From positions 620,001 to 684,000 of the forward strand of contig CP049016.1 of the NCBI GenBank assembly GCA_004376055.2: DNA of 64,000 bases. Reading direction: 5' to 3'. Made by a program: the position numbers and the translations under genes. Each line of letters starts with the position of its first letter. Position 1 is the stretch's first letter. Below the pieces are notes generated by a model. It was given only the letters and a program-made list of their open reading frames with translations, did not search any database and had not been told where the DNA came from. Origin of the DNA: Nitrospirales bacterium LBB_01 (GTDB taxonomy: Bacteria; Nitrospirota; Thermodesulfovibrionia; Thermodesulfovibrionales; Magnetobacteriaceae). This document shows, in pieces, positions 40,059-60,251 of this stretch.

Positions 40059-41612
40059 ATGACGGGTACTCCTTCGTTAACTAACATTCAGAGCTTTATC
40101 TCGGCTCATACAGGGCTCCATGTTGATGAGAAGGATTTGAGTGCTACTATAAATTCACGGTTAAGGCACGTGTCTTTACAGTCGCCTGACGATTACTGCA
40201 CTTTTCTTTCATCGGACACACCTGAAAGCAAACACGAGTGGAAAGTGCTTTATCAGACAATTACTACCGGGGAGAGTTTTTTCTTTAGGGATAAGGGTCA
40301 GTTTTCATTGCTTAGAAATACAATTTTAAGGGAACTTATAGAGCATAACAGAGACAAACGTACCCTCCGGCTTTGGAGTGCTGGCTGCTCTACAGGAGAA
40401 GAGCCATACTCGCTTGCCATTGTGGTTAACGAACTCATTCCGGATATTCACCTATGGGATGTAACTGTCATCGGCACTGATATTAACGAAAACGCTGTAG
40501 AGAAAGCCTCAAGGGGCATCTTTGGCGATTGGTCTTTCCGAATGGTGCCTAAGGATGTGATTGCCACCTATTTTATAAGAAAAAAAGGTAATTATGAAAT
40601 AGAGCCGCGCATACGACGTATGGTTACCTTTAGGCAGGGCAACCTCATTAAAGACAACTACCCAGATATTATCACCGGCATTTTTGACATGGATCTAATC
40701 GTGTGCCGGAATGTGTTTATTTATTTCCAGCCTGAAAACATATCGCTTGCTTTGGGCAAGTTAACAAAGAGCCTGAGAGACGGCGGGTATCTGTTAACCG
40801 GACATGCTGAGCTTCAAGCGGTGCCACACACGGGACTTCTACCAATAGCCTACCCTGATTCCATTATTTTCAGGCGCAGCGATAAAGCCCACAAAAAACA
40901 CACTGAGCTTCCGGTTAATTTCTTACCGGTTCAAAACGTACCCATTCAGCACATACCAGTTCAACAGGTACCAATTAAAAAAGTGGAGAAACACACCGCT
41001 CTGAGAAAACCTGCCGCTCAGGTTATACCCCAAAAGAGCGCTGAAAGGGCGACCGCAGTCCGTCCCTACATACAACCCTCAGGGCCTATCGCCGAATCTA
41101 AAGAGCTGTTAAATGGCGGCAAGTATCCACAGGTTATAGAGAAAATGAGATTTTTTCTAATTGACAATCCAAAACAATCCGAAGCATACGCGCTCCTTGC
41201 CGAGGCATATGCTAATACAGGCGACCTTGCCAATGCTGCCTCTGTCTGTAAAGAGGCCATTGCTATAAATCCGCTTGATACACGCCCGTACTATCTGCTT
41301 GCTCATATTTCGGAGGAGTATGGAAATCACGAAGAGGGAAAGGATATGCTTAAACGGGTCATATATCTTAACCCAAACTGTGTTGCGGCATATCTTGAGC
41401 TAAGCACTATTTACGAAAACACCGGAGACGCCACAAAAGCCCGTAATCTAAAGGAGACTGCGCTTAGTATTCTTGAATCAATGCCGCCTGATATGGAAAT
41501 AGAGTTCTACAGTGGTATGAGAGCAAAAGAGCTGCTTGCAGAATTGAAAAAGTCTCACGCAGCTACCGGTTCACAACGCGGAGCACACAATTTAAAGGTA
41601 AGGAAATCTTAA
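40059..41612 (+). CDS. CheR-type receptor methyltransferase with TPR domain (WspC-like)
   Basis: 517 residues. The N-terminal all-helical CheR domain (about 5-60) and SAM-methyltransferase domain (GESFFFRDKGQF, LWSAGCSTGEEPYSLAIV, VIGTDINENAVEKA, IVCRNVFIYF) give glutamyl methylation of receptors. A Gln/Pro/Val-rich linker (about 285-335) leads into TPR repeats (about 365-500: AYALLAEAYANTGDLANA, AYLELSTIYENTGDA). CheR-TPR fusions are the WspC type. The ATG has no ribosome site; a TATAAT ends six bases before it, so the operon may start with a leaderless mRNA. First gene of a seven-gene chemosensory cluster. Confidence 0.9.
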   Translation: MTGTPSLTNIQSFISAHTGLHVDEKDLSATINSRLRHVSLQSPDDYCTFLSSDTPESKHEWKVLYQTITTGESFFFRDKGQFSLLRNTILRELIEHNRDKRTLRLWSAGCSTGEEPYSLAIVVNELIPDIHLWDVTVIGTDINENAVEKASRGIFGDWSFRMVPKDVIATYFIRKKGNYEIEPRIRRMVTFRQGNLIKDNYPDIITGIFDMDLIVCRNVFIYFQPENISLALGKLTKSLRDGGYLLTGHAELQAVPHTGLLPIAYPDSIIFRRSDKAHKKHTELPVNFLPVQNVPIQHIPVQQVPIKKVEKHTALRKPAAQVIPQKSAERATAVRPYIQPSGPIAESKELLNGGKYPQVIEKMRFFLIDNPKQSEAYALLAEAYANTGDLANAASVCKEAIAINPLDTRPYYLLAHISEEYGNHEEGKDMLKRVIYLNPNCVAAYLELSTIYENTGDATKARNLKETALSILESMPPDMEIEFYSGMRAKELLAELKKSHAATGSQRGAHNLKVRKS

Positions 41613-41613
41613 C

Positions 41614-41721
41614 ATGGAAAGAGTTAGTGAGCTTTTGTATGGGGCTGAGATTGCCACACCCCCTTCGGGGGTTCGCAATGACGGCTCGGGGCTGTGTTAT
41701 TTTTCTGATGGCGGTTCATAA
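41614..41721 (+). pseudogene. 35-codon gene start interrupted by a REP-like element
   Basis: Starts one base after the cheR stop, with AAGGAAATC before ATG. It opens MERVSELLYGAEIAT, then runs straight into the palindromic repeat and stops. The well-placed start suggests a gene between cheR and cheW that lost its body when the repeat arrived, or simply spurious translation. Confidence 0.3.
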
Positions 41722-41772
41722 ATGCGTTTCTTTATCCGTCATTGCGAGGAGCGGCAGCGACGTGGCAATCTC
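41647..41772. repeat. Inverted pair of REP-like palindromes, second copy
   Basis: The left arm is GAGATTGCCACACCCCCTTC to GCAATGAC. The right arm is GTCATTGCGAGGAGCGGCAG to GGCAATCTC. The arrangement is as at 3313-3404, with a spacer of about 55 bases. It separates cheR from cheW within the operon and might modulate expression of the downstream genes. Confidence 0.8.
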
Positions 41773-41813
41773 CTCTTTGCCATTCAGAGTCAAAACTGGA
41801 GTGAGGGTATAAG

Positions 41814-42857
41814 TTGACAACTGATGATATAGCTGTAATACCCTATATCGCTTTTCGCTGCGGCAGGTTTGTTTATGCCGTTGATACGCTCCATGTGAAA
41901 GAAATAATTCATCTGCCGGAGTTTAAACCTGTGGATGAAGCCCCTGAGTATGTGGCAGGACTGGTAAATGTCCGTGGAACCGTTATCCCGCTTATAGATA
42001 TAGACAAACGCTTTGGCCGCAAAGGACACGAGTACGCATTAACCAATAAGGTTATCATCTTCCGGTATAATAGACGGCTTATTGGCGTCATTGTGGATGA
42101 AGTAGAGGATATTTATGACATATCCTCAGATTCTATAGAGAAAGCTCCTATTTATACTGATGAAAAGCTGCACCAAAGCGGCTTTATCGAGCATGTGGCA
42201 AAAATAAATGAAAACATACTTATGATTTTAAGCCACCATAAACTGTTTGACTCCCGTGTGATGGCTGTAATCAGCGAATATGAAGGGCGGGAGGTCTTGG
42301 CGGATGAGTTGCTTTCCTCCGATAAATTACTCTCGTCTGACACCTCAGCCGTTTTTCATAAACGAGCGGTTGCGCTTGCTCCAAAGGATGCCCAACGATA
42401 CGACAGCAGTTCGCTCATGCCTGTTGCCATTGTAGAGCTTGAGGATGAGCTGTTTGGCATTGAGCTTGACGCCGTCCGGGAGTTTATATCCGTCCAGGAG
42501 TACCGGCAGGTGCCATGCTGTCCTTCTCACGTTGTGGGAAACATTAACCTGAGGGGTGAAATAGTAACTCTAATTGATATTCGCAGCACACTTGGACTTT
42601 CCAAAAGCAGCGGCAAGGCTATGGACTCAGCTGTTATTGTAGTAATAGATAACTTTACCGTAGGCATCTGTATAGAATCTCTCAGGGATGTTTTATACCT
42701 GCCGGTTTCGGAGCAAAAGGAGCTTCCGATAGCTATTAAACAGACTAATGAAAGTTTTTTTAAGTGCACCGCCCTTTTTGACGATAAGGCTATTGTGGTG
42801 TTAAACCTGCAAAGCGTTCTTTACAGAGGGTCGTTGATAGTGAATGATATTTTGTAA
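41814..42857 (+). CDS. Double CheW-domain coupling protein
   Basis: 347 residues consisting of two CheW folds: about 8-145 (FRCGRFVYAVDTLHVKEI, LVNVRGTVIPLIDIDKRF) and about 195-335 (VELEDELFGIELDAVREFI, NINLRGEIVTLIDIRSTL). The N-R-G-x-x-(I/V)-P/T-L-I-D-I motif is intact in both halves. It couples receptors to CheA. Wsp systems have two separate CheW proteins, WspB and WspD; one fused protein may serve both roles. The start is TTG 41814, with GGAGTGAGGG upstream. Confidence 0.9.
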   Translation: MTTDDIAVIPYIAFRCGRFVYAVDTLHVKEIIHLPEFKPVDEAPEYVAGLVNVRGTVIPLIDIDKRFGRKGHEYALTNKVIIFRYNRRLIGVIVDEVEDIYDISSDSIEKAPIYTDEKLHQSGFIEHVAKINENILMILSHHKLFDSRVMAVISEYEGREVLADELLSSDKLLSSDTSAVFHKRAVALAPKDAQRYDSSSLMPVAIVELEDELFGIELDAVREFISVQEYRQVPCCPSHVVGNINLRGEIVTLIDIRSTLGLSKSSGKAMDSAVIVVIDNFTVGICIESLRDVLYLPVSEQKELPIAIKQTNESFFKCTALFDDKAIVVLNLQSVLYRGSLIVNDIL

Positions 42858-42879
42858 CCAATATAGGAGGAACTGTTAG

Positions 42880-45027
42880 ATGAAAGTAAAAATGTCGTTA
42901 AAAATGAAGCTGTTTGCGCTCTTTATACTTATTGGAATGATACCGTTTACTGTAGTTGCCATGTACTCATACTCAAAAACAAGGGACAGATTTGTTCAAA
43001 AGACCCTTGACAAACTGGTTGGAATGAGGGAGCTAAAGAAGGCCCAGGTTGAGCAGTATTTTAATAGAATAATCACTCAGGTCTCTACACTTAGCGAAAG
43101 CAGAATGACGATTGATGCTATGAGGGAATTTTCAAGCGCTTTTTACCAGGTTGAAAAGGAATCGGGAGCAAGGTACGATTCCAACCAAAAGCACAATGAT
43201 GACCAGCTGATGGTAAGATATCAGGCTCAAAAGGACAGTATTCCCAATCTGCCAGACAATATTATATCGTCATGGTGGCCTCAAAAGAAGACTGTTAAAA
43301 TTCTCCAGTATGATTACATTGCAGGTAACCCATATCCCATAGGAGGCAAGGAAAAACTTGACTTTGCTGCTAATGATGATACATATAATGCCGTACATAA
43401 AAAATATCACAAGATACTTCGAAATTACTCTAAGAAATTCGGCTACTATGACATGTTTTTGATAGATACTGAAGGTAACATTATCTATACTGTGGAAAAG
43501 GAACTGGATTTTGCTACTAATCTGATAAACGGACCCTACAGCGATTCAAATCTTGCCAAAGCTTTTGACGCTGCTCTCAAATCTAAGGAAAAGGGATTTA
43601 CTAAAATCGTGGATTATGACCCTTATGTGCCGTCAAAAAATGCCCCAGCAGGTTTCATTGCCGCCCCCATATTTGATGGCGATAAGAAAATAGGAGTCAT
43701 TGCTTTCCAATTGCCATTAGACAGGATAAACGACATAATGACAAGCAATAAAGACTGGAAAGGCGTTGGTCAGGGTAGTACGGGAGAGTGTTATATAGTT
43801 GGTGATGACTTTCATATGAAAACAGACTCAAGGCTTTTAATAGAGTCAAAAGACACTTTTATCAATGCTCTTCAAAAACTTGGTACTGATAAAATAGTTA
43901 TAGATGAGATAAAAAGGCATAACACCACAATCGAAATTCTTCAGATAAAAATCCCTGACGTGAAAGAGTCACTAAGCGGCATTACAGACAGCCATATTGG
44001 AGCTCTAAGCTATCTGAATATTCCAGTTCTCATAGCACATGCACCGCTTAATATAAAAGACATGAAGTGGGTAATAATTGTAGAAGAGGCGGAAAGTCAG
44101 GCGTTAATAACATCTCATGAGATCAAAAAAGTTATGTGGATTTTGGGGTTAATCACGGCTATTTGCGTTTTGGCTGCAAGCTACTTTATAAGCCGTGCGT
44201 TAAGTGTCCCTCTAAACAGAGGGATAACTTCTATTTCGTCCTCTACTACTGAAATCTCAAGCACTGTAGAGCAGCACGAAAGAACGGCAGCCCAGCAGGC
44301 CTCCGCAGTAAATGAAACCACCACCACGATGGATGAGCTGTCGGCATCATTTAAGCAATCCGCCGAACAGGCACGGACTGCTTCAGACGGGGCAGGGCAG
44401 GTGCTGGTTATGGTAAATGACGGAGTGGTCAACATAACGGAAATGCTTCACGGAATGACTGTGTTAAAAGAGCGCGTTGAGGCTACGGCATCAAGAATTC
44501 TCCAACTGAGCGAAAAAACCACCCGCATTGAAAGCATAGCAGGAGTGGTGTCGGACTTTGCTAATGAAACCAAGATGCTTGCGATGAACGCTGCAGTTGA
44601 GGCAGTGAGAGCCGGTGAGCACGGAAAAGGATTTTCGGTTGTCGCTATGGAGATACGAAAACTAGCTGAACAGAGTAAGAAATCGGCAGAAGAAATCAGC
44701 GATGTGGTAGCTGAGATTCAAAAAGCCACAAATTCAACTGTCATGGTAACTGAGGAAAGCACAAAGACTGTGGATAAAGAAATGGAGCTAGCGGAAAACA
44801 CCGCAGAAACATTTAACAAACTTACTACCGTTATAAGAGGCTCTGCCGAAAACATTCAGCAAATATTTCTGAACATTCAACAGCAATCCGCCGCAATTTC
44901 ACAGGTGGTGGATGCTATGAGCTCAATAAATAGAGGCGTCAAGGAAACATCAGCCGGAATCACTCAGACAAAACAGGGCATCAGAAACCTTAACGAGGTG
45001 GCGAAAGAACTAAAGGAGATGGTTTAA
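42880..45027 (+). CDS. Methyl-accepting chemotaxis protein lacking a normal HAMP
   Basis: 715 residues. Transmembrane helix 1 (about 11-30) and a large periplasmic double-Cache-like domain (about 35-405) precede helix 2 (VMWILGLITAICVLAASYFI, about 412-431). The cytoplasmic signalling coiled coil has the hairpin ETKMLAMNAAVEAVRAGEHGKGFSVVA, split here as two halves of the conserved tip. After helix 2 only SRALSVPLNRGI remains before the coiled coil starts, so the usual about 50-residue HAMP is missing or very short. TAGGAGGAAC precedes the ATG. It is WspA-like by operon position. Confidence 0.92.
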   Translation: MKVKMSLKMKLFALFILIGMIPFTVVAMYSYSKTRDRFVQKTLDKLVGMRELKKAQVEQYFNRIITQVSTLSESRMTIDAMREFSSAFYQVEKESGARYDSNQKHNDDQLMVRYQAQKDSIPNLPDNIISSWWPQKKTVKILQYDYIAGNPYPIGGKEKLDFAANDDTYNAVHKKYHKILRNYSKKFGYYDMFLIDTEGNIIYTVEKELDFATNLINGPYSDSNLAKAFDAALKSKEKGFTKIVDYDPYVPSKNAPAGFIAAPIFDGDKKIGVIAFQLPLDRINDIMTSNKDWKGVGQGSTGECYIVGDDFHMKTDSRLLIESKDTFINALQKLGTDKIVIDEIKRHNTTIEILQIKIPDVKESLSGITDSHIGALSYLNIPVLIAHAPLNIKDMKWVIIVEEAESQALITSHEIKKVMWILGLITAICVLAASYFISRALSVPLNRGITSISSSTTEISSTVEQHERTAAQQASAVNETTTTMDELSASFKQSAEQARTASDGAGQVLVMVNDGVVNITEMLHGMTVLKERVEATASRILQLSEKTTRIESIAGVVSDFANETKMLAMNAAVEAVRAGEHGKGFSVVAMEIRKLAEQSKKSAEEISDVVAEIQKATNSTVMVTEESTKTVDKEMELAENTAETFNKLTTVIRGSAENIQQIFLNIQQQSAAISQVVDAMSSINRGVKETSAGITQTKQGIRNLNEVAKELKEMV

Positions 45028-45123
45028 GGGGATGGGAGTTGTTAAAGATGGGGAGTTCTAAATGATTTCAAGCCCAGAATCTCCCACAATATATCCTTGT
45101 AATGATGGAATATTCTCTGTTTT

Positions 45124-45205
45124 GTCATTCCTGCGGAGGCAGGAATCCAGGTACCTTAACAGAAGTGTTAAAAGGACTGGATGCCGTATCAAGTACGGCA
45201 TGACA
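45124..45205. repeat. Rearranged copy of the GGATTCC palindromic repeat
   Basis: One hairpin, GTCATTCCTGCGGAGGCAGG to ATCCAG, is followed 26 bases later by CTGGATGCCGTA-TCAAG-TACGGCATGAC. The arms are in the opposite relative order from the other copies, and the second stem has paired substitutions. It lies between mcp and cheA; an in-frame ATG inside it (45181) is not the cheA start. Confidence 0.8.
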
Positions 45206-45219
45206 AATTAAGGGCAATC

Positions 45220-47595
45220 ATGATAGAAGATGCTGAACTAAGAGATATATTTAAGGCTGAAACAGAGGAGCATTTGCAAAAGCTTGAGGATGGGCTAGTC
45301 CAGTTTGAGCAGGCTCCCGATACGCCGGGACTTCTTGAGGAACTCTTTAGAGAATCGCACTCCCTGAAAGGCTCGGCAAGACTAATGGGCGTTGACAAGA
45401 TAGAGCTTGTCAGTCACACACTTGAGGATATGCTGGTTAAGGCCAAGCGCGGAACGACAAAGCTCTCCACCGTCTCCGTAAACAGTATCTATAAGTGTCT
45501 TGACGTTATAAAAGCACTGCTCCATGAGGCTTTAACCGGAGAGACAGCCAATATAAATATTATACATGTGATAGAGGAGCTAAAAGGTGAAAGGGCTTCT
45601 TCACCTCCACCTGTAAAACCAAATCCTGAACCGCCAAAAGCTCAAACACAGACTCCGTCGCCGGCAAAACCGGAATCTGCAGTCATAGAGCCGGTTATAC
45701 CCAAAAAAGAACCTGAAAAGGTATCACTTCAGGCAGAAGAAACACCGCCGCTTTCAATGCCGCAACCGGAAACCCAGCCCGATGATGACACCGAAGAGAC
45801 TGCAACCGGAACTACTGATGCCTCACTAAGTGACGGCGCTGTCCTTTGGCTTGAAGGCAGCGGAAAGCGCTCTATTGAAACCATACGAGTTGAGGCCGGA
45901 AAGCTTGACTCACTGATGGTTCATGTTGGTGAGCTTGTTGTAATAAAAAACCGCATAAACCAACGCATAAACGATATACAAGAGACGGTATCAATGTGGG
46001 AAAGCGTAGTACTGCCGGAACTTAGCGGCAGCTCTGACCTAAGCGTTCAGCAACTGGCGCATTTAGCAAATAACAGGGAGGTATTTTATAAACATCTGAA
46101 TAATCTAAAAAACTCCCTCTCAGAAGATGGCGCAAGGATTTCCTTTGTATCCCAACAGCTTGACCACGGAGCGCACGAACTCATGCTTATTCCCCTTTCT
46201 ACGGTGTTTAACCCGTTTAAGCGCATGGTCAGGGATTTGGCAAATGAAAAAGCAAAAGAGATAAACTTCTATGTAGAAGGCGGAGATACAACTGCAGAAA
46301 AACGAGTCCTTGAGGAAATCAAAGACCCCCTCATGCACATCCTGAGAAACGCCATAGACCATGCAATAGAGACCCCTGATGTACGCAAAGGACTTGGGAA
46401 AAAACAGTGCGGGCTGATTGTACTTAAGGCCTATAAAGAGAGCACAAACATCATTATCGAGGTGCTTGATGACGGACAAGGACTTGCTACGGAAAAAATA
46501 AAAGAAACCGCTATTAAAAATAAACTCGTCGGTCGTGATGTTATGGAGAAAATGACCACAGCAGAAATTCACAATTTTATTTTTACACCGGGATTTTCTA
46601 CAAATAAGATAGTTACGGATATTTCCGGCCGCGGCATAGGAATGGATGTTGTTAAGACCGCTTTGGAGAGGCTTAAAGGCAGTATCACGTTGGAATCTGT
46701 CCCCAACGAGGGATGTAAGATGACACTGCGCATACCTGTAAATATCTCATCTACCAGGGTGTTTCTGGTAATAGCACGTAACCGGACTTATGCTCTCCCC
46801 ATAGAGTTTGTTATGACCACATTTATGCTAAACCTCTCTGATGTTTATAACGTAGAGGGGCAAAAGACTTTTACGTTTATGGACAAACCAGTTTCAGTTT
46901 TATATATAACCGACATCCTTGAAATTACCGAACGTGCCGATTCCGGCAGAACCTTGAAAGCCGACTCATTGGCTCAAAAGCTTCCCTGTATAATGTTTAA
47001 GATTGAGGGGCAGGTGTTTGGCGTTTTAGTCGATGTGCTTGTGGATGAGCAGGAAATAGTGGTAAAATCCTATGGCGGAATATTAAAGCGGGTACGAAAC
47101 GTTTTAGGCTCAACGATACTGGGAAGCGGAGAGGTCTGTATGGTGCTTAATCCGCATGACATACTGAAAACGATAAAGAGCGGCGGCTATAGTTCTACAT
47201 CGCTTCAACAAGCGGAGGCGCTGTCCCAGCAGCACAGCATTTTAATGGCAGAAGACTCCATAACGACACGAACCCAGATGAAGCGCATACTGGAGGGCGC
47301 AGGGTATGAGGTCACAGCGTGTGTGGACGGTCTTGATGCTTTAAATAAGTTGAAAACCGCGGACTTTGACGCTGTGGTATCAGACGTTCAGATGCCTAAT
47401 ATGGATGGACTAACCTTGACGGAAAATATCAGAATGGATACGAAATACAGGGAGCTGCCCGTGATTTTAGTTACAACAATGTCCTCAGACGAGGACATGA
47501 AGCGGGGGATAGAGGTCGGAGCAAACGCCTACATCACAAAACCTGCATTTGACAAGCAGGTGTTTCTTGAAACGCTAAAAAGGCTTATTATATGA
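45220..47595 (+). CDS. Hybrid chemotaxis histidine kinase CheA with C-terminal receiver (WspE-like)
   Basis: 791 residues. P1/HPt carries ESHSLKGSARLMG (phospho-His 47), followed by a long Pro-rich linker. P3 and P4 (HATPase: ILRNAIDHAIETPD, DDGQGL, DISGRGIGMDVVKT) and the P5 CheW-like domain (about 510-640) follow. A receiver at about 668-790 has VVSDVQMPNMDG (Asp 722) and YITKPAF. No P2 domain is obvious. ATG 45220 was chosen because the upstream in-frame ATG lies inside a repeat; AAGGGC is a modest ribosome site. It overlaps cheB by four bases. The fused receiver is typical of Wsp/ACF kinases. Confidence 0.93.
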   Translation: MIEDAELRDIFKAETEEHLQKLEDGLVQFEQAPDTPGLLEELFRESHSLKGSARLMGVDKIELVSHTLEDMLVKAKRGTTKLSTVSVNSIYKCLDVIKALLHEALTGETANINIIHVIEELKGERASSPPPVKPNPEPPKAQTQTPSPAKPESAVIEPVIPKKEPEKVSLQAEETPPLSMPQPETQPDDDTEETATGTTDASLSDGAVLWLEGSGKRSIETIRVEAGKLDSLMVHVGELVVIKNRINQRINDIQETVSMWESVVLPELSGSSDLSVQQLAHLANNREVFYKHLNNLKNSLSEDGARISFVSQQLDHGAHELMLIPLSTVFNPFKRMVRDLANEKAKEINFYVEGGDTTAEKRVLEEIKDPLMHILRNAIDHAIETPDVRKGLGKKQCGLIVLKAYKESTNIIIEVLDDGQGLATEKIKETAIKNKLVGRDVMEKMTTAEIHNFIFTPGFSTNKIVTDISGRGIGMDVVKTALERLKGSITLESVPNEGCKMTLRIPVNISSTRVFLVIARNRTYALPIEFVMTTFMLNLSDVYNVEGQKTFTFMDKPVSVLYITDILEITERADSGRTLKADSLAQKLPCIMFKIEGQVFGVLVDVLVDEQEIVVKSYGGILKRVRNVLGSTILGSGEVCMVLNPHDILKTIKSGGYSSTSLQQAEALSQQHSILMAEDSITTRTQMKRILEGAGYEVTACVDGLDALNKLKTADFDAVVSDVQMPNMDGLTLTENIRMDTKYRELPVILVTTMSSDEDMKRGIEVGANAYITKPAFDKQVFLETLKRLII

Positions 47596-48695
47596 ATATT
47601 TTAAAAAAACGCATAAAAGTTCTCATAGTGGAGGACTCTCCTGTTGCGGTGCTGGCTCTTAAGCGAATGCTTGCAACGTCCGATGAGATAGAGGTAGTGG
47701 GCACAGCGAGGCACGGCAAAGAGGGGCTTGAGATGATTCCCAGACTTAACCCCGATGTAATATGCACAGACCTTCACATGCCTGTGATGGACGGACTTGA
47801 GTTTACCAAAGAAATAATGGCACGCCATCCGCTTCCAACATTAGTGGTGAGCGTCAGTGTGGGCGAAAGCCATACTCAGAATGTGTTTCAACTTCTTCAG
47901 GCTGGAGCTATAGACGTGTTTCCAAAGCCACAGGGTGCGCTGATTGATCAAACTGGTGAATTCTCAGCCGAGTTGGTAAGTAAGATAAAGGTGCTTTCCG
48001 GGGTCATTCCATTTAGTAAACAAAAAAGACAAAAGGCTGTTGCTGCCGGCGTGTTTCCTCCTGCACTACACCCTGCTAAAGCCGTTAGTGTTTCTTTAAC
48101 CAAAGATTTGAGAATGATTGTGATAGGCGCTTCAACCGGAGGCCCGCAGGCGCTTGAAGTTATACTTAAAGCGCTACCTCATGACTTTCCGCTGCCCATA
48201 GTGTGTGTACAGCATATAAGCGACGGCTTTCTTGAAAGTCTTGTCGAGTGGCTCGCTAAGGCCTGTAAGGTGAGGGTTGTGATTGTCAAAAACAACGAGT
48301 TGCCAATGCCCTCAACAGTTTATTTTGCCCCCGATCATAAGCACGTAACATTTAACAGTGAGGGCAGGTTTTTACTGACCGATGCTCCGCCGGTAGATGG
48401 TCACAGACCATCTGTCACAGTGACAATGGCATCCCTTGCCGAGCGTTACCAAAGAGGCGCTATGGCAGTGCTCTTAACCGGCATGGGACGCGACGGCGCT
48501 GACGGGATGCTTTCAGTTAGCAGGGTAGGGGGCACCACTATCGCTCAGGACAAAGACAGCAGTATTGTCTTTGGAATGCCAGAGCAGGCGATAAGGCTTG
48601 GGGCTGCCAAATATGTGCTTGATATTGGAGCTATTGCAAAAGTGCTGGTTGACTTTGCAAATAAAGAAAAGACCGTGAGTTTGACTAAGACCTGA
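47592..48695 (+). CDS. Protein-glutamate methylesterase/deamidase CheB (WspF-like)
   Basis: 367 residues. The N-terminal receiver (VLIVEDSPVAV, CTDLHMPVMDGLEF) is joined to a methylesterase domain with catalytic triad Ser in VIGASTGGPQAL, His in CVQHISDGFLES and Asp in TGMGRDGADGML. It removes methyl groups added by the CheR-type enzyme to reset the receptor. The cheA-cheB overlap of four bases points to translational coupling. There is one base between its stop and the next gene. Confidence 0.95.
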   Translation: MNILKKRIKVLIVEDSPVAVLALKRMLATSDEIEVVGTARHGKEGLEMIPRLNPDVICTDLHMPVMDGLEFTKEIMARHPLPTLVVSVSVGESHTQNVFQLLQAGAIDVFPKPQGALIDQTGEFSAELVSKIKVLSGVIPFSKQKRQKAVAAGVFPPALHPAKAVSVSLTKDLRMIVIGASTGGPQALEVILKALPHDFPLPIVCVQHISDGFLESLVEWLAKACKVRVVIVKNNELPMPSTVYFAPDHKHVTFNSEGRFLLTDAPPVDGHRPSVTVTMASLAERYQRGAMAVLLTGMGRDGADGMLSVSRVGGTTIAQDKDSSIVFGMPEQAIRLGAAKYVLDIGAIAKVLVDFANKEKTVSLTKT

Positions 48696-48696
48696 T

Positions 48697-51633
48697 ATGT
48701 CGCAATTAAATAAGACCAGATTGCTGATAGTAGAAGACAGCGCCATCCAGAGAGAGCTTCTCAAGCGCGTGCTCTTGCGTGCCGATTATGACGTTGTTGC
48801 TGCGGTGGATGGCGTAGATGGATTTGCAAAGGCAGAAAAACACAACCCCTCGTTAATCATAAGCGACATTTCAATGCCTAATATGGATGGCTACGAAATG
48901 TGCCAGAAGATAAAAAACACAGAGAGCTTATCAGCCATTCCTGTGATTTTACTGACAGCCCTTTCAGATGTCAGAGAAATCATACGCGGGCTTCAGTCTG
49001 AGGCCGACTACTACATTACAAAGCCTTATGATGAAAAGTACCTGCTCCTCTGTATAGAGTCGCTTCTTTCCGATGTAAACAAAGGGCAGGACGATGACCC
49101 TGAGGCTGGGCTTAAAATCAGTTTTCTCGGTGAGCATTATACGATAAAAACTCACCCCCGGCAAACCCTTAACCTGCTTCTTTCCACATACGAAAATGCC
49201 GTTCAAAAAAACACCGAGCTGATAAAGGCTCAGTTTGAGTTAAAAACCCTCAACGAGGAGCTTGAAAACAAGGTCAGAGAACGGACAAAGGAATTGCAGG
49301 CCTCTGAAGAGAGCTACAAGGTGCTTTTTGAAAACACTTTTAGCGGATTTTACAGATTTACTCCCGATGGCAAATTTCTTTCGATAAATCCGGCCTTTAC
49401 CTCGATGCTTGGCTATTCAAGTAAGGATGAGATGCTGACATTTTGTCAGGACCTCTCGTGTCAGTATTTTAAGCAGAAAGATTACGAAAAATTTATGGAG
49501 GCCTTAAGAAATAACACCTCTATGAAGGACTTCGTGTGTCATTTAAAAAAGAAAGACGGCAGTGAGTTAATAATAGAGCAAAACATTCGGGTGGTGAGAA
49601 GCGATGACGGAGAGCCTCAGTACTATGAGGGGTTCATTAACGATGTAACTGAGTGTAAGCGTGCTGAGGCACAGTTGATTAAGCTATCAAGTGCTATAAT
49701 ACAAAGCCCTGTGGCTGTGATAATAACCGATCTTGATGGTAAAATAGATTTTATCAATCCCAGATTTTGTGAAATGACAGGTTATAGCCGTCAAGAGGTA
49801 ACAGGGAAAAACCCGCGGTTTTTACAATCCGGTAAAACCCCTCCTGAGGTATATGCCGACCTCTGGGATACGATAAAATCTGGCGGCACATGGCAGGGTG
49901 AGCTGCTTAACAAAAGAAAAGACGGCAACTTCTACTGGAACAGTATCACGGTGTCTCCGATAAGGGATTCAGACGGCATTATCACGCATTATCTGTCAGT
50001 CAATGAGGATATATCAAATCGCAAAGAGGTGGAGGAGACCCTGAGAAAAGCTAAAGAGGCATCGGAGGTTGCAAATCGTGCCAAAAGCGAATTTTTGGCT
50101 AACATGAGCCACGAAATCCGCACCCCCATGAACGCCATTATTGGAATGTCCGGTCTGGTTCTTGACACCGAGCTGCAGCCAGAACAGAAGGATTACATAG
50201 AGATAGTGCTGAACTCAGCCAATTCTCTTTTAACAATTATAAACAGCATTCTGGATTTTTCAAAGATAGAATCCGGCAAACTTGAGCTTGAGGAGATAAG
50301 TTTTGATCTTCGTGAGTTGATGGAAAATATATCCGATCCGCTTTCTATTTCTGCCCACAAAAAAGGACTTGAACTTTCAAGCCATGTAAAACCCGGTGTG
50401 CCGCTTAAATTAATCGGCGACCCGGCACGTCTTGGGCAGATCATTATCAACCTTGTCGGAAATGCCCTGAAGTTTACCGAGACAGGTGAGATAATAATAG
50501 AGGTTGATACAGAGCCGGGTTATGACACCGGAAATTCGGTCATGATGCACTTTACCGTTACTGACACGGGAATTGGAATACCCTCCTCTAAGTTTAAATA
50601 TATATTTGAAAACTTCTCACAGGCTGACGGCTCAATGACAAGGAAATACGGCGGCACTGGGCTTGGGCTTGCCATATCAAAGCAGTTAGTGACACTGATG
50701 GGCGGCGAGATTTGGCTTCAGAGCACTGAGGGCAAGGGCAGCACTTTTCATTTCACGGCAAAGTTTTTCCATAGCGGAGTTAGCGAGTGTATAGGGCCGC
50801 TGTGTTTTAACAATATCAGAGTGCTGGTGTCTTGTAATTTCTCCACCAGCTGTAACTTAATCAGAGACATTTTAAGCTGTGCCGATAATGAAGTTACAGA
50901 GGCACAGGGACCGGATGAGACGTTTAAAAGACTGGAGGCCGCAAAGGCAGCCGGGCGGCCTTACGATATAGCTTTTGTTGATGTGCGGCTTGCTGGAGTA
51001 GGTGGGTTCAAAATGGCAGAGCATATAATAAAAACTCCTGAGGCTGCCTCATCGGTAGTAATGATGCTTAATTCCAATCAAAGAAGCGGCGATGTTGAAA
51101 GATGCAAGGAAATCGGCGCTTCTTCATATTTGATTAAACCGATAAAGTATAAAGAGGTCATAAAAACTATGACTGAGCTTGTGAGAAAGCCCTCTCTCGA
51201 CACTAATATTGTCACGGAGGTGCTAAAGACAGAGCCTGCTCCTGCTGCCATTTCAGCGCTTCGCATTCTCTTAGTTGACGACAACCTTACAAACCGTGTG
51301 GTGGCTAAAGGGATAATGAAAAAACACGGCTACAGTATAACTGAGGCGGAGGATGGTCAACAGGCGGTGAAAATTCTTAGTGAAGGACTATTTGATATAG
51401 TTTTAATGGACGTACAGATGCCTGTGATGGATGGTTTTGAAGCAACAAAAATAATAAAGTCAACAGATTCAACCCGGCATATACCGGTCATTGCAATGAC
51501 AGCACACGCTATGAAAGAAGACAGACAGCGATGTCTTGACGCCGGAATGGACGACTACATAACAAAACCAGTAAGAGCCGCAGAATTGAAAGAGGTCATA
51601 GAGCGGCATAATCCGCTAAAACGGCAAAGTTGA
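48697..51633 (+). CDS. REC-PAS-PAS hybrid histidine kinase with two terminal receivers
   Basis: 978 residues, soluble. An N-terminal receiver ([14 protein letters not shown], Asp about 54) is followed by a helical linker, PAS 1 (about 205-325), PAS 2 (about 327-450), HisKA with [14 protein letters not shown] (His 472) and HATPase ([23 protein letters not shown]). A receiver with a damaged acidic pair follows (about 705-825; SCNFSTS replaces D-D but AFVDVRL keeps the Asp). The final receiver is intact ([11 protein letters not shown], Asp 905). The leading receiver is a logical target for the adjacent CheA. It starts two bases after cheB, in the same operon. Confidence 0.9.
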
Positions 51634-51678
51634 TAACAATAGTGTGGAACACACACAACTTAAATAAAGGGGCGCATT

Positions 51679-53013
51679 ATGACAGAACATGATAAAAAGG
51701 ACGGTATAGATGTCTTATTAGTAGAGGACAGTCTGAGTCAGGCAGTATTTCTTAAAAACCTGCTCGTCAGATACAGGTATAAAGTGAGGATAGCCAGAAA
51801 CGGGATGGAGGGTCTTGAATTCCTGAAAGAAAAGCCGTATCCTGACATAATAATCAGCGACGTACAGATGCCGATTATGGACGGCTATGAGATGTGTAAA
51901 ATTGTAAAAAACAACGACACCTTAAAAACTATCCCTGTGATACTGCTTACTCAGTTGTCGGCGGCAGAGGATATAATAAAGGGACTTGAGAGCGGTGCGG
52001 ATAACTTTATAATAAAGCCATACACGGAGGAATCTTTAATCGGCAGAATAGGCCAACTGATTAAATCATACAAGGCAGAGCAAAGCCCGTCTGCTCCCGC
52101 AACCGGCATTGAATTAACGATGAGCGGGAAAAACTATATACTGAATCCTGAGCGCCGCCAGATTTTAAATCTGCTTGTAACGACATACGAAAAGGTAATA
52201 GACCAAAATAAACTGCTGCTTGAAAAAGAGTACGAATTAACCAGGATGAACAACATATTAGAGCAGCGGGTGGAGGAGGAGACAAAGAAACGGCTGGAGC
52301 ATGAGCAGTTACTGGTTCACCGCTCTAAGATGGCTACAATGGGGGAAATGCTTGGAGTCATTGCCCATCAGTGGAAACAGCCTCTAAATTCTTTTGCACT
52401 TATGGTTCAGGATTTACAAGAGACTTTTACTGCTGGAGAGCTCAATCAGACCTTCATGGACAAGACCGTAGCGGACTCAATGAGCCAGATAGGATTTATG
52501 TCAAAAACGATAGACGATTTCAGAAAGTTTTTTATGCCGTCTAAAAAAGTGTCTGATTTTAACGTTGTTGATGCAGTAAATGAGGTTATACGGCTATTGT
52601 CATCACAGATAAAGGGTAGCAATATTGAGATAAAGGTTGAAAGCGCTGACAATGATAAACTTACGGTTAAGGGGTATCGCAATGAGTTTATGCACGTGAT
52701 TTTAAACTTAATATCCAACTCACGTGATGCTATTGTAGCACGTGGTAAGTCAGGTATTCGTACAATTTCAATAGTAATGAACACAGATGGCAACCGTGTG
52801 CTAACTGAGATTCAGGATACCGGAGGCGGGATATCGGAGGATATTCTTTCTAAAGTGTTTGACGCATATTTTACGACAAAAGGTGAGTCAGACGGCACTG
52901 GAATCGGACTTTACATATCAAAAATAATAATAGAAAATAACATGAGAGGAAAACTCACCGCAGAAAATAAAGGAGCCGGTGCAGTGTTTAGAATATCTAT
53001 TCCTCATTCGTAG
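51679..53013 (+). CDS. REC-headed histidine kinase
   Basis: 444 residues. A receiver domain (LLVEDSLSQAV, IIISDVQMPIMDGYEMC, FIIKPYTEES) is followed by a coiled-coil linker (about 165-215). HisKA has VIAHQWKQPLNSF (phospho-His 230), and the HATPase has NLISNSRDA, DTGGGISED and GTGIGLYISKII. AAAGGGG precedes the ATG. The receiver and linker resemble the front of the 978-residue kinase, which suggests a paralogous pair taking input from CheA. It is the last gene of the chemosensory operon; a palindromic element follows. Confidence 0.9.
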   Translation: MTEHDKKDGIDVLLVEDSLSQAVFLKNLLVRYRYKVRIARNGMEGLEFLKEKPYPDIIISDVQMPIMDGYEMCKIVKNNDTLKTIPVILLTQLSAAEDIIKGLESGADNFIIKPYTEESLIGRIGQLIKSYKAEQSPSAPATGIELTMSGKNYILNPERRQILNLLVTTYEKVIDQNKLLLEKEYELTRMNNILEQRVEEETKKRLEHEQLLVHRSKMATMGEMLGVIAHQWKQPLNSFALMVQDLQETFTAGELNQTFMDKTVADSMSQIGFMSKTIDDFRKFFMPSKKVSDFNVVDAVNEVIRLLSSQIKGSNIEIKVESADNDKLTVKGYRNEFMHVILNLISNSRDAIVARGKSGIRTISIVMNTDGNRVLTEIQDTGGGISEDILSKVFDAYFTTKGESDGTGIGLYISKIIIENNMRGKLTAENKGAGAVFRISIPHS

Positions 53014-55683: not shown

Positions 55684-58600
55684 CTAAATTCCCACCTGAG
55701 GGCGGCTTTGCACCACGTAGAATCTACCGCCTGAGTAAACCCCTTCTATGTCCTGTGGAGCGCCAAGAGCGGTCTCCACTGCTTTTCCAATATCGGCGAT
55801 AGAAAGAAGCGTGTCGTTTCTGAAATTCTCATCCGACATAAGCGGCTCATTTGAATAATCAAGAGGGACACATTTGGGCTGCGGCGTTATGATGCTGTCG
55901 TAAAGTCCTGCTCCGGCATAGTTTTCCAAATCCTCAGCGTCAGAGTCAGACCGGAAAATCAGCCCGCCTCCGTAAAGCCCAACACTCTTACCAGGGTAGG
56001 ACGACACCACCGGTACTCCTATGGATTTCTTGCAGGTAAAACTCAATGCCCTGCCCGGATAGTTACCAACTATGGTTTCCCCAAGACCCAAAACCACCTC
56101 GGCAAACATCTCCTCCGAATCCCTCGTCACTGGGTTTACCGTGTGAATCACAAACGCATAATCTGCCTCTATGACCCTCTGTATCAGTACAGCCATGTCA
56201 ATGTGTCCATCAAGCTGCATTTTTTTCCTGTTGTAATATGCCCTCGTATTCCACACCGATGCCCACACCTGTTTTATACACGTGCCAAACGTTTCTGTAT
56301 CAGTCCCGTTTGTTTCAGTAAGAAGTTCCGATGAGTGCATCACTGTTGTCAGTAACGATAGGAAATCATCAGGAAGCGACAAAGACATTACAGTCAGCCG
56401 GAGGCTTGATAAAATTGCCGATACCTTCTCGGTGTGCGTTTCAGTTACGGTGTTATTGAGATCCTTTATTAATACGTCATAATTCTTGCGTACGTTTTCA
56501 TTTGCACTATGCCCTAAAATCTTTTCAAAAACACCAAATGGGACAGCCGCAGACATCGGTAAATTTATCCATCCCGGCAGCTTATCCCTGAGCCTTGCTA
56601 AGTTTAGAGACTTACCGCCAACACACGCTTTAGTAAAGTCATCGGCACTGATTACATCTGCTATATCAGATGGTTTAGCAGCTTCTTTCTTGCTACTTGA
56701 CGGTTTAGCCGAGCGTTGTCTTTTAGTTTCAACCGTGTCGGCGGGTTTTTCCAGTTCGTTTATAACAACCTCTCCCTGAGAGTTGATAACAAGAGACACA
56801 TATTTGCCCTTTAACGATTTTAGGTAAGATAAAATCTCATCGCTAAAACAGGTGGCAAAGAGAATCCGCTCATTTCTTGCCCTAACAGAGACGTGAGACA
56901 CAATGTCTGCCATCTCCTCCGATATTACAGCAGTCACTCCGGAGGGAATATCCTCATCGCCTGAGACTTTATCTGTTATTATCACGGTTTGCTGCTTAAA
57001 CTCCATGCCCTCAGTTTCTTTGAGGGTGTGATATAACTCTACGATGCCAGAGGCTTCAAACGGACTAAGCACCTGCCACCTTCTAAGCCCCGCTTCAGTC
57101 CTCAAGAGCTTGTTAAGGTATCTAAGTAAAAGGGAGACTACAAATGGAAACTGTCCCCTTAACACCTCCTCCGTAAACATGGTAACAGTCCAGGGCGCCG
57201 CATTAAACCTGTTACCCAGATGCTCAGCACGTGCTTGGAATGCGCTATAGTAAAAATCAACAAACAGACCTATTAATCGCTCTATTCTTTCCACCACCGA
57301 CAGCGAGCTCAGTACCCATTCGGTGCAATCAGCAGAATTAATCTTTCTTATATGATTAATGCAGCTCTGTATTTCAACCCTGACGTCAGGACAAGAGTTT
57401 GCCTTCTCAACGGGAGGCAAATCAGTTAGCAGTAAGTTTTCTAAAGACAAATCGACAAGCTCAAGCAGTGTGTGTCCGCCGAGATTGGCGTGAAGGTTTC
57501 TCTCTGTCAACACCCGCAGGTACTCCATCAGCGATAAATCAAGAAACAATAAGTCCTTAAGGCGTCCAAGGTCACGCTCTGACACGATGATGTCTCTAAT
57601 GCGCTCTCGTATCCACTTTATTGTGGTAAAAAGCCTTGTAACTATAGTAATATCCATGCTGTCTCTATTGTCAACAATAAATCTGAGAGCAGCCATAACA
57701 TTGCCGCCAAATATGTATGAGACGGAATCGCAGCATCTTTCAAGATCTACCCCTTTATGGACAGAGTTAAGAATCTTTAGGTAGTGTTCAAAATCCCCTA
57801 TCAGAGCATCCCGCAGATGGGGGATGAACTCAGGATCGCTTCTTATGGGGCGCTCAAAACTCATGAGACGCTCTCTGGTTACACCCATAGAGTTCAACAC
57901 TGAGTAGAACACATCAAGACTGCCGTGTGACCGCTGAAACTCTATGTAGGCCTTACAGATTACTATATCATCGGCTGTAGCGTTATTGTGGAGTTTCTGA
58001 TGCCATTGCTCTATAAAGGTGTGATTAACCTCTTTTAACCTGTTTCTGTGCATGATGTGTAGAATCTCATCACGTATTCGCTGACCGTCGCCCCCAGGGC
58101 CTATGTTTGATAGTATCATAGGGATTATGTGTCTGACTTGCGGACTGTCGGCGTATATTGACGAGAGCTTCAGGCACAGTCTGTCAAGAGCGTGGCTAAG
58201 CTCACGCGGCTGTGTGTTGAAGTTTCTTTGCCAGTCAAGCTGTCTGAGTGCCGAGTACCTAAGCCATATATACATAATGTACAATCCGTTTCTGTCATTA
58301 GACATTCCCTCGCAGAAATTATGACACAGATTAAATCTGTGCATGAGTGTCCATGACTGGGGTCCTGTTTCTTTAGATACAATTTCGTCAATGACTGTAG
58401 TGTGGTCAGTATCACCGAGTGGCTGAACCTCTTTAAGTTGTATTTTAAAGTCCTCACGTCCGTTTTTTATCCACGCATTCTTATCAGGCTTAAAAAGTAC
58501 AAACAGAATGCAGGCTGGGGCGGTATCTGTTGGAAATTTTATAGTTAAACGTCCGCTTTTTTCTATAAATTCATTTTCAAGAGAGCTGTTTTTAATAATA

Positions 58601-59286
58601 GAATTCCCCTCCGACACTTCATATTTTGTCGGAATTTCCCACTTGTTGCCGCCTCTATCGGAAACTCCCCAATGAAGAATTAACGGCGGTGGGATGTCAG
58701 TGCTCAGGCTAAGCACAATTTGTGATGAAGACTTATCCATGGATGCGTACAGTGTGCCGTGTGGAGGCAAATTAAATGTAAAACCGTCGGTTTCTCTGTT
58801 GTGCACAGGATATTGCTTGAGGACTTCTGAGGATACGTCTATTACTTTAGATTTACTAACAATAAAATCCTTAATTCTAAGTCTGAAGTTTTTTCCGCCG
58901 TTATTGTCCCATGAGTTATTGTGTGAAAAATACAGAACAAACTCAATCATCTTATAAGGAGTATCTTTTTTAACTTTTAACAGGAGTTCATTAACAACAT
59001 CCTCATCGTTACGTAGAGTTTTAAACGGTGATTGAAGCGCTGCACCCGTTACATTAAGTGATCCCTCCGGCCACAAATCCAACTCAGGGGCATTCCATTT
59101 GCCCTTCTCGTCTCTTGTCAATCCCCAGTGCAGGACGTCAGGCAAAATAACTGGAGTTTTTTTATTTTGAGATGAAACCCGCAGTCTTATATATATAAAC
59201 GAACCATTATCAGCATCTTGTCCCCCGGGCGGCTCGGCGGTTAATACAACTCCCTTATCAGTTTTGAACTCGTAGGTCGTCCCCAT
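55684..59286 (-). CDS. Alpha-glucan water dikinase (GWD-like), full length
   Basis: 1200 residues. The N-terminal half has two starch-binding-type modules (about 5-130 and about 150-280), with repeated HWG-(V/L) and W..P motifs. LHNNATADDIVICKAYIEF (about 427-447) is the plant GWD signature. The phospho-His region is DIVSHVSVRARN (His 798), and the C-terminal ATP-grasp domain has VGGKSLNLARL, VWASVWNTRAYYNRKK, FRSDSDAEDLENYAGAGLYD and YVVQSRPQ. GWD puts phosphate on glucose C6 of starch-like glucan, using both ATP phosphates and water. GGAGG precedes the ATG. It probably regulates turnover of glycogen-like storage glucan. No glycogen genes are adjacent. Confidence 0.9.
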   Translation of the reverse strand: MGTTYEFKTDKGVVLTAEPPGGQDADNGSFIYIRLRVSSQNKKTPVILPDVLHWGLTRDEKGKWNAPELDLWPEGSLNVTGAALQSPFKTLRNDEDVVNELLLKVKKDTPYKMIEFVLYFSHNNSWDNNGGKNFRLRIKDFIVSKSKVIDVSSEVLKQYPVHNRETDGFTFNLPPHGTLYASMDKSSSQIVLSLSTDIPPPLILHWGVSDRGGNKWEIPTKYEVSEGNSIIKNSSLENEFIEKSGRLTIKFPTDTAPACILFVLFKPDKNAWIKNGREDFKIQLKEVQPLGDTDHTTVIDEIVSKETGPQSWTLMHRFNLCHNFCEGMSNDRNGLYIMYIWLRYSALRQLDWQRNFNTQPRELSHALDRLCLKLSSIYADSPQVRHIIPMILSNIGPGGDGQRIRDEILHIMHRNRLKEVNHTFIEQWHQKLHNNATADDIVICKAYIEFQRSHGSLDVFYSVLNSMGVTRERLMSFERPIRSDPEFIPHLRDALIGDFEHYLKILNSVHKGVDLERCCDSVSYIFGGNVMAALRFIVDNRDSMDITIVTRLFTTIKWIRERIRDIIVSERDLGRLKDLLFLDLSLMEYLRVLTERNLHANLGGHTLLELVDLSLENLLLTDLPPVEKANSCPDVRVEIQSCINHIRKINSADCTEWVLSSLSVVERIERLIGLFVDFYYSAFQARAEHLGNRFNAAPWTVTMFTEEVLRGQFPFVVSLLLRYLNKLLRTEAGLRRWQVLSPFEASGIVELYHTLKETEGMEFKQQTVIITDKVSGDEDIPSGVTAVISEEMADIVSHVSVRARNERILFATCFSDEILSYLKSLKGKYVSLVINSQGEVVINELEKPADTVETKRQRSAKPSSSKKEAAKPSDIADVISADDFTKACVGGKSLNLARLRDKLPGWINLPMSAAVPFGVFEKILGHSANENVRKNYDVLIKDLNNTVTETHTEKVSAILSSLRLTVMSLSLPDDFLSLLTTVMHSSELLTETNGTDTETFGTCIKQVWASVWNTRAYYNRKKMQLDGHIDMAVLIQRVIEADYAFVIHTVNPVTRDSEEMFAEVVLGLGETIVGNYPGRALSFTCKKSIGVPVVSSYPGKSVGLYGGGLIFRSDSDAEDLENYAGAGLYDSIITPQPKCVPLDYSNEPLMSDENFRNDTLLSIADIGKAVETALGAPQDIEGVYSGGRFYVVQSRPQVGI

Positions 59287-59313: not shown

Positions 59314-59967
59314 CTAAGTATCAGACTTAGTGCCTAAGTCTGGGGGAGTTACAGCAGATTCCTCAGTGCCTTTGACAATAGTAGTTACTTTTTCGTGATA
59401 TAAAAACACAGCGTTTTTCGTTTCCTCATCAAGTGTAGGATGATTATTTAACATGGAAATTATTTGCTGCCCTTCAGAGTCTATCTGTTTTATCAGATCA
59501 TCCTTCAGGGTGTGCATAGTTTGCAAGTTGTCAACCACAGTATTTACATCTGTCACAAAATTCTTGATAAGATACACATCCCTGCCCCTTAAGAATAGTC
59601 GTTTTGACAGATCCCCTGCAACGATTGCCTGCATTTCTGTTATAAGTCTGCTAAACGGGCTTAAAATCCTGTAGGTAAAAAGCATAACAAGAAAAATAGC
59701 AACAAACCCATAACTCAAAAACACAACAAAAAACGCTATAACGCTCTTATTGCTGAAAGTAACCTCAGAACCGTCATGTATGCCTGTGTATTTAGCTACT
59801 ATTATGGATGTTATAACCAATAAGACCAGAGCGCCCCCGATAACCAGAGCAACAACTGTGCCAAAGTTTGCGACTAAAGGTGAACGCTTATACTTGTCAT
59901 CATCGCCCATAGCCAATATTAACATAGAAAGATATGCAAATGTCAAGAAAATAATAAAAATCCTCAT
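59314..59967 (-). CDS. Membrane protein with HAMP-like domain and coiled coil
   Basis: 217 residues. An N-terminal hydrophobic segment (IFIIFLTFAYLSMLILAM) and two further helices (VVALVIGGALVLLVITSIIV about 38-57, VIAFFVVFLSYGFVAIFLVMLF about 74-95) precede a HAMP-like stretch. The HAMP-like part is YRILSPFSRLITEMQAIVAGDLSKRL (about 97-122, in two pieces). An amphipathic coiled coil (about 125-195) ends the protein without kinase, cyclase or MCP output. It might be a partner of a separate signalling protein. There is no strong ribosome site. The stop lies 27 bases before the dikinase start on the same strand. Confidence 0.7.
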   Translation of the reverse strand: MRIFIIFLTFAYLSMLILAMGDDDKYKRSPLVANFGTVVALVIGGALVLLVITSIIVAKYTGIHDGSEVTFSNKSVIAFFVVFLSYGFVAIFLVMLFTYRILSPFSRLITEMQAIVAGDLSKRLFLRGRDVYLIKNFVTDVNTVVDNLQTMHTLKDDLIKQIDSEGQQIISMLNNHPTLDEETKNAVFLYHEKVTTIVKGTEESAVTPPDLGTKSDT

Positions 59968-60002: not shown

Positions 60003-60251
60003 TTAATCATCCATATTGAACGGATGGCGGCTTTCAAGATAATACTGTAAAGCGCTTTTTGCTATCCGCCATCTGCCGGCTACTTTGGATGCCGCTATGT
60101 CGCCTATCTCAACAAGCCGGTACATGGTTATATAACTCATCCTCAGCATCTTAGCTATCTCATCAATAGTGTAAAACTCCGGTCCCTTTGTTAACTCCGC
60201 CCTAATTTCCTCAATCTCAAAAAAAGAATCAATCTCCTCTGAAATGTTCAT
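60003..60251 (-). CDS. Small excisionase-type helix-turn-helix protein
   Basis: 82 residues. YTIDEIAKMLRMSYITMYRLVEIGDIAASKVAGRWRIAKSALQYYL, shown here as the continuous core in about 27-72, is the winged-helix fold of the excisionase/MerR-like HTH_17 family. It probably binds DNA as a small regulator or architectural factor. A consensus sigma-70 promoter lies about 170 bases upstream. It is divergent from the XRE-type gene at 60484. Confidence 0.8.
   Translation of the reverse strand: MNISEEIDSFFEIEEIRAELTKGPEFYTIDEIAKMLRMSYITMYRLVEIGDIAASKVAGRWRIAKSALQYYLESRHPFNMDD

Follow-up and report, generated by a model that had tools for sequence, protein, structure and literature searches.

The phosphorylation of glucans by dikinases is regarded as a characteristic of eukaryotes that make starch, and a gene for such an enzyme in a bacterium raises the question of what it phosphorylates there and with which partner it works. 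The window analysed here is a stretch of 64,000 nucleotides from the Nitrospirota organism Nitrospirales bacterium LBB_01 (contig CP049016.1, positions 620,001 to 684,000). It contains the gene of an alpha-glucan water dikinase (GWD) at 55684..59286 on the minus strand, which has an ATG start, encodes 1200 residues without an internal stop, and is present as a single copy in the 3.27 Mb one-contig genome (G000, 99.87% complete). According to the accessible parts of the literature, GWD phosphorylates glucosyl units at C6 and PWD at C3, and both draw on the beta-phosphate of ATP and employ a conserved histidine (PMC12892837, PMC13011383), which is His992 in the potato enzyme (PMC12892837). Here we describe a TIM barrel protein that is very likely functionally tied to the bacterial GWD. 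It is somewhat more probable than not that the dikinase and the TIM barrel, acting as a metallo-phosphoesterase, constitute a bacterial cycle of glucan phosphorylation and dephosphorylation.

The domains of the window protein make its identification as a GWD near certain. The phosphohistidine domain (56746..57078, minus strand as for all parts of the gene; residues 737–847) matches PF22973, GWD1_pHisD, with 120.6 bits against a Pfam cut-off of 27, and contains the motif SHVSVRAR with the catalytic His798, the CAC codon of which was located at 56893..56895 by residue alignment. The helical domain (57094..58422, residues 289–731) is covered by the solved helical domain of plant GWD (PDB: 9ha9) with an E-value of 1.4e-67, and carries LHNNATADD at residues 432–440. 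The C-terminal ATP-grasp, or nucleotide-binding, region (55693..56637, approximately residues 884–1198) is matched in three stretches by PF01326, PPDK_N, with 89 bits, which is above the curated cut-off, and by stretches of NCBIfam PEP synthase models. It includes the RSDSxxED loop at residues 1112–1119, within IFRSDSDAEDLE at residues 1110–1121. The N-terminal part is formed by two modules that match PF23166, Ig_N_CWD1, in two stretches with 133 bits, above the curated cut-off. Module 1 (58837..59286, residues 1–150 with estimated limits) contains conserved HWG, W, and WDNN motifs, whereas module 2 (58435..58749, residues 180–284) is the best PF23166 stretch. The first-pass annotation had described both modules as CBM45-like; the two modules are indeed present, but the Pfam family that they match is named Ig-like N-terminal domain, and CBM45 is the label of the plant modules.

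The alignment of bacterial GWDs of this type, designated GWD-A, comprises 32 of 35 open reading frames; partial L064, L046, and L032, a duplicate of L002, were omitted. Locus L002 coincides in sequence with a part of genome G003, which is scored as belonging to the same genus as the window genome. Residues H433, N434, N435, D439, D440, H798, R802, and R804, as well as K892, R1020, E1063, R1112, E1118, D1119, Q1193, and R1195, do not vary among the 32 sequences, so that the GWD motifs listed in the first-pass annotation are intact and no catalytic residue has been lost. In N-terminal module 1, H53, W54, G55, W64, W126, N128, and N129 are kept in 30 rows and gapped in two. Chance is excluded as the source of the combined domain and residue matches, and the enzyme is very probably active on alpha-glucan. 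The redox regulation of plant GWD1 involves a cysteine pair in the motif CFATC. The residue preceding FATC in GWD-A is leucine in 27 sequences, valine in two, phenylalanine in two, and proline in one, but never cysteine (0/32), and the first cysteine of the redox pair is thus absent. The description of the protein as fully plant-like is therefore correct for the domains and catalytic residues, but not for this cysteine.

The distribution of GWD was determined from matches to PF22973 above the cut-off in Nitrospirota relatives, in a sample spread evenly over the phylum and overlapping with them, and in control genomes. GWD is present in 33 of 100 relatives, namely in 18 of 19 members of the window's family and 15 of 81 genomes elsewhere in the order. 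The lone family member without it, G018, is 64% complete. The phylum sample yielded 22 positive genomes out of 295, and the control genomes none out of 14. The GWD and TIM alignments had no match in viral contigs or in phages, and a plasmid search with the profiles returned PEP synthase-like and distant matches only.

The clustering of open reading frames around GWD genes revealed the partner, a PF01261 TIM barrel of the endonuclease IV/CbiR-like type, which is encoded in the window genome at C1:22573-23391, 650 kb from GWD. Strong matches (E < 1e-20) occur in 29 of the 100 relatives, that is, in 28 of 33 genomes with GWD and one of 67 without it (Fisher test, 1.3e-18). Most other genomes gave weaker matches (E 1e-4 to 1e-10) to a related protein, and these were excluded from the counts. 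The sole TIM-containing genome without GWD is G018, from the window's family, and TIM is missing from GWD-containing G014 (56% complete) and from four genomes of one family discussed below. In the phylum sample, the TIM profile A1 identified 20 of the 22 genomes with GWD above the cut-off and none of the 273 others; a partial match of 58.7 bits in GWD-containing G052, from 21 listed, was omitted. TIM and GWD are jointly present or jointly absent in families f2, f4, f5, f6, f8, and f13, and within one genus G034 has both, whereas G022 has neither.

Beyond the window's family, the gene order was compared in 14 genomes with TIM, of which 11 came from the relatives and three more from the phylum sample. 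In 10 of them (G021, G034, G055, G062, G077, G092, G094, G201, G285, and G307) TIM is either the direct neighbor of GWD-A or part of a second dikinase, GWD-B, encoded next to it; of the neighboring GWD of G094, the contig contains the last 243 residues only. A stand-alone TIM gene is positioned beside GWD-A in G034, G055, and, judging by coordinates, G201, which belongs to another order and has the gene order GWD-TIM-GH13. TIM of G069 is located 2.9 kb from GWD-A on the same strand, and in G054, G088, and G095 it is part of a TIM-GH13-GT5 cluster, followed in G054 and G088 by DUF4912-like and GH57 genes. Within the window's family, the fusion is adjacent to GWD-A in G009 and on a different contig in G008, and TIM is elsewhere in the rest. 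The GH13 gene often follows TIM and is located directly after GWD in G043, G052, G079, and G087, where TIM is missing. It is present in 15 of 33 relatives with GWD and two of 67 without it.

GWD-B is a divergent dikinase with the PF01261 TIM barrel as its N-terminus. It occurs in nine genomes (G008, G009, G021, G062, G077, G092, G307, G285, and G055), and adjoins GWD-A in seven of them. The proteins encoded at loci L040, L049, L057, L059, L063, L039, L141, and L142 have approximately 1130–1214 residues where complete; GWD-B of G285 is cut by a contig end and that of G055 is split across two overlapping frames. The catalytic histidine and SHxxxRAR are retained in GWD-B. Of 140 positions that do not vary among 25 GWD-A sequences, 47 are likewise invariant among six GWD-B sequences, but HNN..DD is replaced by LHRxxGPEDx. 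In all six GWD-B sequences, one of which reads RSSACGED, the RSSSNCED loop comes ahead of VWASLW, which is also the order in PEP synthase. The RSDSxxED loop of GWD-A (loop residues conserved in 32/32) follows VWASLW in three of three sequences inspected, which indicates that this ATP-grasp segment is displaced in GWD-A. Plant GWD1 presumably has the same loop order as GWD-A; if so, the displacement would be a rare change common to plant GWD1 and bacterial GWD-A. Downstream of GWD-B, a unit of about 350 residues is encoded ahead of the GH13 gene or forms one protein with it (L049:5216-7561, L057:11421-12482, L056:12560-13648); scanned alone against Pfam, it did not match any family above the cut-off.

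The tree of the helical domain, calculated from 33 GWD-A, six GWD-B, and one plant sequence, separates GWD-A from GWD-B with support of 100/100. The window's family, except for G009, forms one group inside GWD-A (100/98). The plant sequence is on a long branch, the position of which is without strong support, and the constraint of bacterial GWD-A to one clade was not rejected (approximately unbiased test, p 0.497). The identity to the plant helical domain is 34–43% for GWD-A (35.2% for the window protein) and 18–21% for GWD-B, and the absence of a close pair shows that any transfer was not recent. A recent eukaryote-to-bacterium transfer, which the first-pass annotation had considered, was rejected because of this lack of a close plant match and the deep bacterial diversity, and the sequences leave practically no room for a recent transfer of GWD into this genome. 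The presence of GWD in 18 of 19 sampled members of the family, and the recovery of the family as one group except for G009, likewise speak against such an event. Since only one plant domain was included, the direction of transfer is undecided and an old transfer either way is compatible with the tree; the expectation that the gene could shed light on how starch phosphorylation arose in plants is not borne out by a single plant domain in an unsupported position.

It is unlikely that the window protein is an ordinary bacterial GWD of algal descent, acquired laterally, that phosphorylates glycogen alone, with the TIM link reflecting shared ancestry. Such an origin would fit the patchy occurrence of GWD outside one family, as seen in the phylum sample, and its absence from the control genomes, and the legend of Fig. 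9 in PMC6260743 suggests that some bacteria could have gained GWD by lateral transfer. The identity to the plant domain nevertheless argues against a recent event, and the two genes come and go together across the families listed above and are adjacent or fused.

The metal site of the TIM barrel is among the observations in favor of the proposed phosphoesterase. The TIM alignment A1 (18 rows) has 49–87% identity to the copy of the window genome, and the family has the invariant motifs GNQT, FEW, and HxHxHEN of its own. Residues H74, H108, E139, D169, H172, H198, D209, H211, and E245 correspond to the nine ligands of a three-metal site, in the register given by an hhalign alignment to 14 endonuclease IV sequences from relatives (E 2.3e-10). 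The assignment employs the ligand numbers of E. coli Nfo. The ligand string HHEDHHDHE is present in 26 of 26 TIM domains, including six GWD-B fusions, G201, and G285. The best PDB match is MJ1311 (PDB: 3wqo; E 2.9e-12), followed by AP endonucleases at about 1e-3. The nearest NCBIfam family is the cobamide phosphodiesterase CbiR (E 8.9e-8), but the TIM proteins reach only 31.9 and 33.3 bits with model NF041277, for which the cut-off is 105, and the deoxyribonuclease IV model gave one 15-bit match to them against a cut-off of 244. We give an even chance to the TIM barrel being a phosphoglucan phosphoesterase.

A slightly less probable alternative than the algal transfer, and likewise an unlikely one, is that the TIM protein is a sugar-phosphate isomerase or epimerase acting on phosphosugars freed from phosphorylated glucan. 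PF01261 is the xylose isomerase-like TIM barrel family of Pfam, and one distantly related protein bears the annotation sugar phosphate isomerase/epimerase; however, all nine endonuclease IV-type ligands are kept, the isomerase-like structure 4kw2 has a glutamate at the second histidine and lacks DxH in its alignment to TIM, and the best named match is a phosphodiesterase. A DNA repair role for TIM in place of endonuclease IV, with an accidental link to GWD, is very improbable. In its favor, the endonuclease IV model TIGR00587 has no match in TIM-containing G000 and is missing from 16 of the 18 members of family f1 searched, G000 included, but present in 12 of 12 others of the order. Against it, G006, G009, and G021 hold both TIM and endonuclease IV, a repair enzyme would have no reason to be fused to a dikinase or encoded amid GWD and GH13 genes, and an exonuclease III-like gene, recognized by eye only, is located 5 kb from TIM in the window genome (L076:3420-4211).

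The window genome provides a setting for the phosphorylation cycle, as the gene content supports a complete storage-glucan set consisting of glgC, GT5 synthases, GH57 branching enzyme, and GlgP. The glycogen synthase and branching enzyme genes that the first-pass annotation suggested looking for were thus found. The glgC gene (C1:1963909-1965015) scores 431.7 bits, above the cut-off, the three GT5 synthases at 707380, 1356136, and 2198029 score 265.6, 237.3, and 224.5 bits, and GlgP at 225900-228044 scores 1121.5 bits. A shorter GT35-like protein is encoded at 3152 kb. The GT5 gene at 1356136 is followed by a DUF4912 gene and the GH57 branching enzyme. A second GT5, with 213–240 bits, occurs among the matches listed in 24 of 33 relatives with GWD (partial in G095) and one of 67 without it, when synthases are split by a bit score of our own choice. 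The GH13 gene typical of the TIM and GWD clusters was not found in G000. The DUF4912 gene (C1:1357675-1360214, locus L027), a counterpart of which stands beside the branching enzyme in L049, is possibly an uncharacterised glucan protein.

The glucan phosphatase that had also been anticipated has a candidate of a different kind. No dual-specificity phosphatase (PF00782, laforin/SEX4-type) was detected in G000, and in the relatives this family is unrelated to GWD, occurring in four of 33 genomes with GWD and four of 67 without it; it was therefore rejected as the partner, and the TIM barrel is the candidate instead.

In the proposed mechanism, GWD-A would pass the beta-phosphate of ATP via His798 to glucosyl residues of a glycogen-like storage glucan. 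The phosphate groups may loosen the glucan or make it soluble and so prepare it for breakdown, or may restrict its branching. In the accessible part of PMC13011383, covalent phosphate is described as reducing the affinity of branching enzyme, and an effect on glucan structure is thus another possible purpose. The TIM metalloenzyme, as the most constant second member of the module, would most likely take the phosphate off and so remove the block for phosphorylase or amylase, and phosphorylase and, where present, the GH13 enzyme could then act on the cleared chains. The module would be old and inherited in the window's family plus scattered relatives. We infer the substrate, the phosphate position, the phosphatase activity, and the physiological role from family membership and sequence. 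More tentative, and somewhat below an even chance, is the fuller proposal of a complete bacterial cycle, possibly older than or independent of plastids, in which GWD-A adds phosphate, a TIM hydrolase unrelated to SEX4 and laforin removes it, and the TIM–GWD-B fusion of nine genomes may do both.

Several observations weigh against the cycle. TIM and GWD are far apart in the window genome and most of its family, and G043, G052, G079, and G087, which belong to one family and are 89–100% complete, contain GWD without TIM, which is therefore not indispensable. The Fisher tests treat genomes as independent and ignore kinship. The three-metal ligands are also found in MJ1311 and, as far as they were aligned, in the related TIM barrel of most of the order (10/10 examined), which was for this reason dropped as a negative control; the ligands thus support metal chemistry, but do not point to a particular substrate. 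The substrates of endonuclease IV and CbiR are phosphodiesters and not sugar monoesters. The single-sequence structure prediction of the N-terminal 300 residues of GWD reached a predicted local distance difference test score of only 45.

Upstream of GWD, on the same strand, the window encodes a 217-residue membrane protein with a weak HAMP match (59314..59967, 27 nucleotides from GWD) and then an 82-residue helix-turn-helix protein of the HTH_17 family (60003..60251). Homologues of the membrane protein were found in 10 of 41 loci with called open reading frames, all from the window's family and two of them one contig, and directly adjoin GWD in five of five inspected (L002, L029, L030, L034, and L048). 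The HTH_17 protein is kept in four loci of the window's genus, two of them one contig. It is possible that the HAMP-like or HTH_17 protein is a regulator or membrane anchor of GWD. On the plus strand, positions 40059-53013 hold a run of chemotaxis and two-component genes, with CheR-TPR and Cache-MCP proteins identified by Pfam, then receiver and histidine kinase proteins and a CheB-like protein, the last of these recognized by eye.

Bacterial GWD as such is already known from the legend of Fig. 9 in PMC6260743, and the view that bacterial GWDs are little studied fits the literature found, although they are not unknown. The same paper, in its accessible part, cites a proposal according to which GWD arose along with the primary plastid, and Gloeomargarita, thought to be the sister of the plastid ancestor, is described in the available part of PMC6805951 as lacking a GWD homologue. 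Searches of partly accessible literature found no study of a bacterial GWD or of GWD linked to a PF01261 TIM barrel. The exact phrase "bacterial GWD" and variants returned no papers, although the PMC6260743 legend mentions bacterial GWD, and phrase searches thus miss some. In a review of prokaryotic alpha-glucan enzymes (PMC11046441), the words "dikinase", "GWD", and "laforin" are absent from the opening 300,000 of 445,374 characters. Judged from this literature, three features appear to be new: the link of a three-metal TIM barrel to GWD, the fusion of this barrel with a second dikinase, and the gene order GWD-TIM-GH13. Whether bacterial glycogen is phosphorylated at all is left open in the accessible part of PMC13011383, and an inherited bacterial GWD with a phosphoesterase-like partner makes the question testable in E. 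coli. High-resolution GWD structures are said to be missing in the part of PMC12892837 available, although two PDB entries (9ha9 and 9qvi) exist for one domain; the window GWD is a compact bacterial enzyme for structural work.

Plant GWD1 is about 1460 residues long, compared with 1200 for the window GWD, and presumably shares its RSDS..ED loop near the C-terminus. Plant GWD1 (EC 2.7.9.4; PDB: 9ha9, 9qvi) has the same domain order, from the N-terminal modules to the ATP-grasp region, and the catalytic histidine and LHNN..DD motif in common with the window GWD. The two are 35% identical over the helical domain and differ in the first redox cysteine, absent from the bacterial enzyme, in the bacterial gene set, and in the fold of the candidate phosphatase. 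PWD, or GWD3, is a paralogue of GWD1, as GWD-B is a divergent paralogue usually beside GWD-A, but GWD-B has an N-terminal TIM barrel instead of CBM20, which a Pfam scan found neither in the window GWD nor in the three GWD-B proteins examined. With the endonuclease IV/CbiR group of the AP endonuclease 2 superfamily, the partner TIM barrel has the nine metal ligands in common, whereas its own motifs and its scores below the named cut-offs set it apart as a family of its own. CbiR is described in the accessible part of PMC7733943 as EDTA-sensitive and as converting cobalamin to cobinamide phosphate. SEX4, LSF2, and laforin, which are dual-specificity phosphatases according to the part of PMC5779698 available, have the role proposed here for the TIM barrel, the removal of phosphate added by GWD, but their fold is unrelated to it, and the TIM partner may thus represent a new class of glucan phosphatase.

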